Origin: Mugil cephalus
Lineage: Eukaryota > Chordata > Actinopteri > Mugiliformes > Mugilidae
Assembly: GCF_022458985.1 (NCBI RefSeq)
Contig: NC_061784.1
Location: forward strand, 25,156,045 to 25,220,044
DNA: 64,000 nt
Direction: 5' to 3'
The position numbers and the translations under genes were made by a program. This document shows, piece after piece, positions 55,801 to 58,800 of this stretch (position 1 is its first letter; each line of letters starts with the position of its first letter). The notes under the pieces are model-generated. The model did no database searches. It saw only the letters and a program-made list of their open reading frames with translations, and was not told where the DNA came from.

Positions 55801-58800
55801 TATATTTGTCCTGGATGAACTGTGACCTCTCCTCATCACTGGCCCCTGGATGCAGTAGCTCCGCCCCTGGCGCGGCTGGAGCCCACACCTGATTGGCCAG
55901 CCGGTTCCCATAGAGGATAAATAGCTATGGGGAGATTAAAGTTTCAAAGTTAGAGGACACCGATCCTAATGGTCCAGTCCCCAGTCCCCCTCACCTGTAC
56001 CAATGGTCTAGTCCAGTCTCACCTGTACTAATGGTTCAGTCCCCACTCACCTGTACTAATGGTTCAGTCCCCCCTCACCTGTACTAATGGTCTCATCCAA
56101 TCTCACCTGTACTAATGGTCTAGTCCAGTCTCACCTGTACCAATGGTCTAGTTCAGTCTCACCTGTACTAATGGTTCAGTCCCCACTCACCTGTACTAAT
56201 GGTCTCATCCAGTCTCACCTGTACTAATGGTCTAGTTCAGTCTCACCTGTACTAATGGTTCAGTCCCCCCTCACCTGTACTAATGGTCTCATCCAGTCTC
56301 ACCTGTACTAATGGTCTAGTCCAGTCTCACCTGTACTAATGGTTCAGTCCAGTTTCACCTGTACTAATGGTTCAGTCCAGTCTCACCTGTACTAATGCTC
56401 TAGTCCAGTCTCACTTGTACTAATGGTTCAGTCCAGTCTCACCTGTACTAATGCTCTAGTCCAGTCTCACCTGTACTAATGGTTCAGTCCAGTCTCACCT
56501 GTACTAATGCTCTAGTCCAGTCTCACTTGTACTAATGGTTCAGTCCAGTCTCACCTGTACTAATGCTCTAGTCCAGTCTCACCTGTACTAATGGTTCAGT
56601 CCAGTCTCACCTGTACTAATGCTCTAGTCCAGTCTCACTTGTACTAATGGTTCAGTCCAGTCTCACCTGTATCAGTGGTTCAGTCCAGATCTTGTTGTCC
56701 ATCTTCAGACTTCGAACCTTTGACAAGTTGCTGCCCAGAGCTCGGTGTTGACCTGTCAGCATTAAAACCACCTCTTAGCATTGTTAGCTTTCCTTGGTGA
56801 TATTATTATTGTTGTTGATTGGTGAGCTGTCCACCAATCAGAGAGCTCCTACCCATTGTCAAGACACTTCCCGTGTCCCTGTTGCTAGGTTACAGACACC
56901 TAATCCTAACCTTAACCCACTCATGGGCCAGTTACCATAGAAACACACTGAACCCACACTAAACACCTGGGAGCCTGGATGCTAACGTTAGCCAGCATGC
57001 TAACATACCTGCACAGTCGTGGCAGATGACCAGCAGCAGGTTGACCGACGCCCACTCAGGATTAGCTGCTCCACAGTCAGCACACACCTTGTTGGACGGG
57101 TTCTCCCAGAGACGCTGCGCCACCTGGCTGCAGGACAGGGCACTGCGGATAGTCGAGGACAAGACGTCCAACCAGAGAGACAGATCCTTGGACGACTCAA
57201 CGGACAGGCTGGGGGCAGGATCATGGGACAGGAAGACAGACCAGGGAGTCAGACAGGTGGACAGAAAGACAGCGAGAGAGAGAGAGACATGTGGTACCCA
57301 AAGGTCCTGTAGGGCGCGATGAGGCTGAAGGAGGGGACAGGGGGACAGGGGGACATGTACCTGAATGTCCTGTAGGGCGTGATGAGGCTGAAGGAGGGGA
57401 CAGGAGACAGGGGGACAGGGGGACATGTACCTGAATGTCCTGTAGGGCGTGATGAGGCTGAAGGAGGGGACAGGAGACAGGGCGACAGGGAGACAGGGGG
57501 ACAGGGGGACAGGGGGACAGGGGGACATGTACCTGAATGTCCTGTAGGGTGTGATGAGGCTGAAGGAGGGGACAGGGGACAGGGGGACAGGGGGACAGGG
57601 GGACATGTACCTGAATGTCCTGTAGGGCGTGATGAGGCTGAAGGAGGGGACAGGAGACAGGGGGACAGGGGGACATGTACCTGAATGTCCTGTAGGGCGT
57701 GATGAGGCTGAAGGAGGGGACAGGGGGACAGGGGACATGTAACCTGAATGTCCTTTTATGGCGTGAATGAGGCTGAAGGGGGGACAGTGGGACAGGGGAC
57801 ATGTACCTGAAGTCCTGTAGGGCGTGAATGAGGCTGAAGAGGGGACAGGGGACAGGGGGACCATGTACCTGAATGTCCTGTAGGCGTGATGAGGCGAAGG
57901 GAGGGGACAGGGGGACAGGGGGACATGTACCTGAATGTCCTGTAGGGCGTGATGAGGCTGAAGGAGGGGACAGGGGGACAGGGGGACATGTACCTGAATG
58001 TCCTGTAGGGCGTGATGAGGCTGAAGGAGGGGACAGGGGGACAGGGGGACATGTACCTGAATGTCCTGTAGGGCGTGATGAAGCTGAAGGAGGGGACAGG
58101 GGGACATGTACCTGAATGTCCTGTAGGGCGTGATGAGGCTGAAGGAGTGCTTCCCGGTGGTCTTGGCTGTGGCCAGGTTCAGGGGGACGGAGAAGGAGGC
58201 GATGCCCAGCTGGAAGCTCTCCTTGCTGGGGTAGATCCAGACCTCGTGGCCCCACACGGCTGCATAGGCCCGTCCACGAGACTCCTTCATGCTGATTGGT
58301 CCGTGCAAGTCTGGGGAGGCGGGACTTGGCTGGCCCCGAGAAGCCAGCAGAGACGAGACCCAACCGTCCTGGACGTCTGAGGGACAGAAATGAAAAGACA
58401 AGAAACGTCCTCATGTATCAGCTGAATTCCACTCCTACTGTTCTGCTGTCCTACCAAGTATGTCCTACTGATGCTGTCCTACCAGTAATGTCCTACTGTC
58501 CTGCTGTCCTTCCAAGTATGTCCTACTGATGCTGTCCTACCAGTAATGTCCTACAGTCCTGCTGTCCTACCAAGTATGTCCTACTGATGCTGTCCTACTA
58601 GTAATGTCCTACTGATGGTGTCCTACAGTAATGTCTTGCTGTCCTACCAAGTATGTCCTACTGATGCTGTCCTACTAGTAATGTCCTACTGATGGTGTCC
58701 TACAGTAATGTCTTGCTGTCCTACCTAGTATGTCCTACTGATGGTGTCTTACCAGTAATGTCTTACTGTCCTGCTGTCCTACCAGTAATGTCGTACTGAT

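Follow-up and report, generated by a model that had tools for sequence, protein, structure and literature searches.

A minisatellite formed from the exon-donor junction of an ArfGAP exon in an ARAP-type gene of Mugil cephalus

A 64,000-nucleotide stretch of the Mugil cephalus genome (NCBI RefSeq assembly GCF_022458985.1, contig NC_061784.1, positions 25,156,045 to 25,220,044 of the forward strand; the window in what follows) carries on its minus strand an ARAP-type gene, in which 677 of the 742 bp of intron 11 (55925..56666) are taken up by a tandem array of 28-bp units. All ARAP coordinates given here refer to the minus strand. Exons 2-24 of the gene (n=23) join as one open frame that runs to a stop, with Pfam domains in the order PH, ArfGap (residues 534-649) and RhoGAP; we take the gene to be an ARAP on the basis of this domain order. 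Exon 11 (56667..56752, 86 nt) is ArfGAP coding and ends within that domain. The ArfGap Pfam match spans exons 10-12, exon 12 (55742..55924) joins exon 11 in phase, and the alignment with a solved SMAP1-like ArfGAP continues without a break over the junction. The open frame, the domains and the alignment across this junction make the 5' splice site between 56667 and 56666 secure, placing the exon where a preliminary description of the sequence had put it, and conservation of the ArfGAP reading on both sides of the junction identifies the exon as what gave rise to the array.

The first repeat unit (56661..56688) consists of the last 22 nt of exon 11 followed by gtgaga, and thus contains the real donor. 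Beyond it lie 24 intronic copies (55995..56666), identified through Tandem Repeats Finder (TRF), unit spacing and donor scoring, each with a donor-like junction at its end, and then a degenerate array end (55966..55994), whose last unit was left out of the counts. TRF called 55990-56688 with a period of 28 and 25 copies. The real donor and the intronic copies amount to 25 junction-like sites, spaced by exactly 28 bp in 24/24 cases with no indels, in line with the earlier estimate of about 24 repeats. Self-comparison of the region shows that this register continues into the exon: at lag 28 the match is 22-25/28 from -21 to +77 around the exon 11 border, falling to 17-18 at -35 and -28 and to 7-12 upstream of there, from -42, the array similarity reaching about 22 nt into the exon before it fades. 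Since the 28-bp register runs 22 nt into exon 11, each unit is an exon tail plus a donor.

The match between unit and exon was also set against shuffled sequence. The 22-nt unit tail agrees with exon 11 at 19/22 positions at best; when the exon was dinucleotide-shuffled 20,000 times, one shuffle reached this level, and nowhere else in the 64-kb window, on either strand, was a match of at least 17/22 found; chance is therefore excluded. Of the sequence TACAGGTGAG the window holds 22 occurrences where 0.27 would be expected, and all but one of these 22 lie within the array. The array originated from the exon-donor junction and grew by duplication across it, as the preliminary description had proposed. 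Its definition of the unit as the last 22 bp of the exon plus gtgaga stands as well; the three to four changes it allowed for are too few, as the intronic copies show between 3 and 9 differences when compared with the exon-donor 28-mer.

Twelve unit types are found among the 24 intronic units. In the exon-proximal half of the array (56359..56666) the unit list and lag-4 identity reveal a higher-order repeat of four units (112 bp): units 5-8 repeat units 1-4, units 9-11 repeat units 1-3, and mean identity at lag 4 is 27.5/28 across the first 12 units, a sign of recent expansion adjoining the exon. The frame of exon 11 reads WTEPLIQ, the commonest copy (7/24) WTEPLVQ, and the intronic copies are free of coding constraint, as two of them hold a stop in the exon frame. 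The exon copy is set apart from 24/24 intronic copies at two sites and from 22/24 at a third; because the exon is also under coding constraint, this divergence is a weak sign that it is excluded from homogenisation. GT is kept in every intronic copy and is preceded by AG in 21/24.

Not every site reads CAG/GTGAGA, as had been claimed: this form is found at only 16 of the 25 sites including the real one, the others being CAA/GTGAGA (3, the copies without a G at -1), CAG/GTGAGG (3), CAG/GTGAGT (2) and CAG/GTGAAA (1). With a matrix built from the 51 annotated U2-type donors of the window, all 24 copies score at least as high as the median donor (a U12-like intron of the neighbouring IK/RED gene was left out of the splice-site matrices), so that the expected two dozen competing 5' splice sites are indeed present downstream of the real one. 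The further expectation that only every third of them would keep the ArfGAP frame fails. Any extension to a distal donor reads CAG and then GTG AGA CTG GAC TGA, and all 24 downstream donors therefore meet one common stop codon; even for the eight whose added length is divisible by three, the stop follows after four extra codons with 13 exons still downstream, and no copy keeps the frame. Products of this kind would be expected to undergo nonsense-mediated decay.

A second and more striking donor-junction array is evident two introns upstream in the same gene. Intron 9 contains an array (57304..58147) with a unit of about 63 bp, composed of a 36-nt tail of exon 9 (58112..58376, the end of the PH domain and source of the unit) and about 27 nt of intron, so that intact copies hold both a donor and an acceptor. 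Of its 12 intronic copies, six match the 36 exon bases at 36/36, two at 35 and one at 32, and the remaining three (57744-57869) are broken by small indels, possibly residual long-read errors; the real donor 9-mer is kept in 10/12. In the copies, exon 9's own CTCCTTCAG now lies behind pyrimidine-rich intron and so becomes an acceptor, scoring 9.4-11.1 against 2.9 for the real one with a matrix made without intron 9, and 10.1-11.8 against 5.1 with the full matrix. In nine copies the acceptor core is intact, and each of these could serve as an in-frame micro-exon of 27 nt ahead of a donor.

Arrays at splice junctions are also seen in two plus-strand genes of the window, here labelled together with ARAP by gene and intron number (ARAP9, ARAP11, RED3, RED15 and so on). 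The IK/RED gene, with matches to Protein Red chains, has 18 exons in one open frame to a stop, its start exon lying outside these 18; the 3' part of an ADAMTS gene, annotated from 7.8 kb on, has 14 exons in one open frame with Pfam matches to TSP1_ADAMTS and the reprolysin propeptide. A structure search with one plus-strand frame of 1-14997 gave no match. IK/RED intron 3 (19741-20134) is the mirror case: its own acceptor junction, repeated in 33-bp units (array 19748..20139), takes up nearly all of it, each unit with a tgctaact element and ctctgtag/AGATA, the tgctaac being presumably branch-like. A further array (25782..26498) fills IK/RED intron 15 from -3 at the donor, and the ADAMTS gene has a partly degenerate array (9866..10165) that reaches 3 bp into the exon at a donor (CAG/GTCGCC).

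To place these cases, in-register copies of at least 14/18 junction bases were counted in a junction's own intron and in cross-intron pairs, over 52 introns of the three genes. Donor copies were found in the own intron for 4/52 junctions against 4/2,652 cross-intron pairs (p 8e-6, the null not being length-matched), namely ARAP9 with 10 copies, ARAP11 with 19, and ARAP14 and RED10 with one each; acceptor copies were found for 1/52 (RED3, 10 copies) against 0/2,652 (p 0.019, the null likewise not length-matched). At 15/18 only ARAP9 and ARAP11 are left (2/52 vs 1/2,652, p 0.001), and at 13/18 the count is 5/52 vs 19/2,652 (p 7e-5), RED15 passing at this loosest threshold only. The ADAMTS array junction (ADAMTS9 in the labelling used here) passed the 18-base donor test at none of the three thresholds. 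IK/RED intron 12 (23418-23950), which contains a TAG-rich array of 450 bp, resembles a U12-type AT-AC intron in having ATATCCTT at the donor, CCTTAAC near its end and an AC acceptor.

Tandem arrays make up 10,992 of the 20,215 annotated intron bases of the three genes (54%), or 10,952/17,099 (64%) if ARAP intron 21, which carries a transposon, is set aside. They are present in 21/23 introns longer than 300 bp vs 7/20 introns of 110 bp or less, and array content correlates with intron length (Spearman 0.74). ARAP exon 1 and its intron were excluded from the counts because the join with exon 2 yields a stop; that intron, following the first annotated exon (63672-63766), is another near-complete array (62376-63669). 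An array starts at most 36 bp from the donor in 27/33 array-bearing introns and at most 36 bp from the acceptor in 17/33, a donor-side count that is weak because arrays nearly fill many introns. The donor bias has p 0.012 without a guard (n=29), p 0.60 with an acceptor guard of 20 bp (n=24), and p 0.09 with one of 50 bp (n=17), then leaning to the acceptor side. In a permutation of ARAP alone, the 36-bp cut gave p 0.0003-0.004, whereas cuts of 10 or 20 bp lost significance (p 0.018, 0.033) with any guard but the smallest. As the bias is gone once acceptor space is reserved, we do not claim that arrays generally start at donors. Between the flanking genes, the region of AIG1-family (GIMAP-like) genes at 27501-45400 has 168 of its 17,900 bases in arrays, against 54-64% in the annotated introns of those genes.

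Other features of the ARAP gene include an in-frame 39-bp coding repeat in exon 20 (52224-52317) and, in intron 21 (48681-49454), a Tc1/Sleeping Beauty-like transposase reading frame with Pfam matches to HTH_SB and HTH_Tnp_Tc3_2. The frame ends (46874-46930) soon after the RhoGAP domain and RA is not among the Pfam matches; either this is a short form or further exons were missed.

Tandem repeats across exon-intron boundaries are described under the name 'mirages' for amphioxus Adh3, and also for globin genes, in passages of PMC3087553 where the authors suggest that splicing is undisturbed and report length variation; imperfect relatives of mirage repeats are described for lancelet PGBD5 in part of PMC3902484. 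The intron 11 array, known from one assembly, likewise crosses the exon-intron boundary, its register extending 22 nt into the exon, its copies carry AG/GT splice signals, and its boundary unit stands, if weakly, outside homogenisation; its higher-order repeat hints at length instability as well. It is real, and a further case of the known mirage type. It differs from the amphioxus examples (Adh3 and the globins BflGb6 and BflGb9) in its vertebrate-like gene set, its 28-bp unit present in 24 copies, and the occurrence of several cases in one 64-kb window. Human F7 intron 7 offers a further parallel: according to a section of PMC6627357, it holds a variable number of 37-bp repeats, the first of which contains the real donor, and splicing normally employs the most upstream of the 5' splice sites and no other. 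The likeness lies in homologous repeats with the real donor in the first; the gene, the unrelated unit, the copy number and the species are different. For human segmental duplications, PMC2812944 describes minisatellites at exon-intron boundaries that can change splicing and give rise to introns; the human cases differ in being recent paralogues supported by transcripts. Among the matches listed in the open literature, as judged by titles and abstract openings, no report of splice-junction repeats in fishes was recognised.

We regard it as highly probable that the intron 11 array is a mirage minisatellite representing tolerated intron growth, with the exon-proximal donor in use. Duplication of a stretch across the ArfGAP exon's 5' splice junction seeded a tandem array that then expanded into the intron, the latest step probably being the 112-bp higher-order repeat of four units adjoining the exon. 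The spliceosome would pick the exon-proximal donor, the array being tolerated for that reason, and any leakage to distal donors would yield transcripts that nonsense-mediated decay would be expected to remove. Several observations weigh against this reading. The real donor 9-mer is repeated exactly in 15/24 copies, and the two GTGAGT copies outscore it by matrix. The preliminary description was thus right that such variants are better than the real site, though these are two and not several; by U1 duplex energy five of the 24 are slightly stronger (-11.6 or -11.7 vs -11.1). Predicted pairing leaves copies identical to the real donor unpaired at 0.44-0.65, compared with 0.60 for the real site, and only the GTGAGG and GTGAGT variants are more paired (0.29-0.35), so that structural masking was not seen for the identical copies. 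Use of the exon-proximal donor is, moreover, something we infer by analogy with F7 intron 7 and the amphioxus mirages.

The abundance of good donors could instead point to a regulated decoy array, in which some distal donor use, always yielding products with the common stop, lets copy number tune the amount of ARAP protein through decay. The single stop shared by all 24 distal donors and their strength relative to the median donor fit such a role, as does the recent higher-order repeat, which makes up nearly half of the array and owing to which copy number may vary. We nevertheless consider it unlikely, as the authors of the precedents report or suggest that normal splicing passes over such copies and the donor bases are not clearly more conserved (3/9 vary among units, vs 9/19 other positions). 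Far less probable is a recently gained intron of the Rogers type, where tandem duplication of an exon piece bearing AGGT provides both splice sites. The duplicated segment with AG/GT recalls that model, and the CAG/GT or CAA/GT of each unit has the proto-splice form discussed in part of PMC3087553, but the acceptor of intron 11 lies 65 bp past the array and is no copy of the unit. Unit copies also score poorly as acceptors (-8.4 to 3.0, where the 51 annotated acceptors have a median of 9.7), for which reason the unit CAG was rejected as a 3' or recursive splice site, yet only 3/24 fall below the worst annotated acceptor (-3.1). That an assembler inflated or collapsed a short repeat seems equally improbable: the three indel-bearing copies of the neighbouring 63-bp array are such as poorly polished reads may give, but the 24 units of the 28-bp array are free of indels and fall into 12 types in readable order, and an artefact could alter copy number without creating the junction match.

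Because it sets 25 donors, nearly all alike, next to a single exon, the array is a natural test of how the spliceosome chooses among equal 5' splice sites, and of how introns lengthen. A broader scenario, which we put forward only as a doubtful one, is that tandem amplification of splice junctions is a recurrent route of intron growth in this genome and that some arrays are exon nurseries; if true, alternative inclusion of the intron 9 micro-exons would insert repeats into the ARAP PH domain. The occurrence of these arrays in a fish means that amphioxus is not the only setting for mirage minisatellites, and that a single genome can have the donor type and the acceptor type in genes that lie next to each other.
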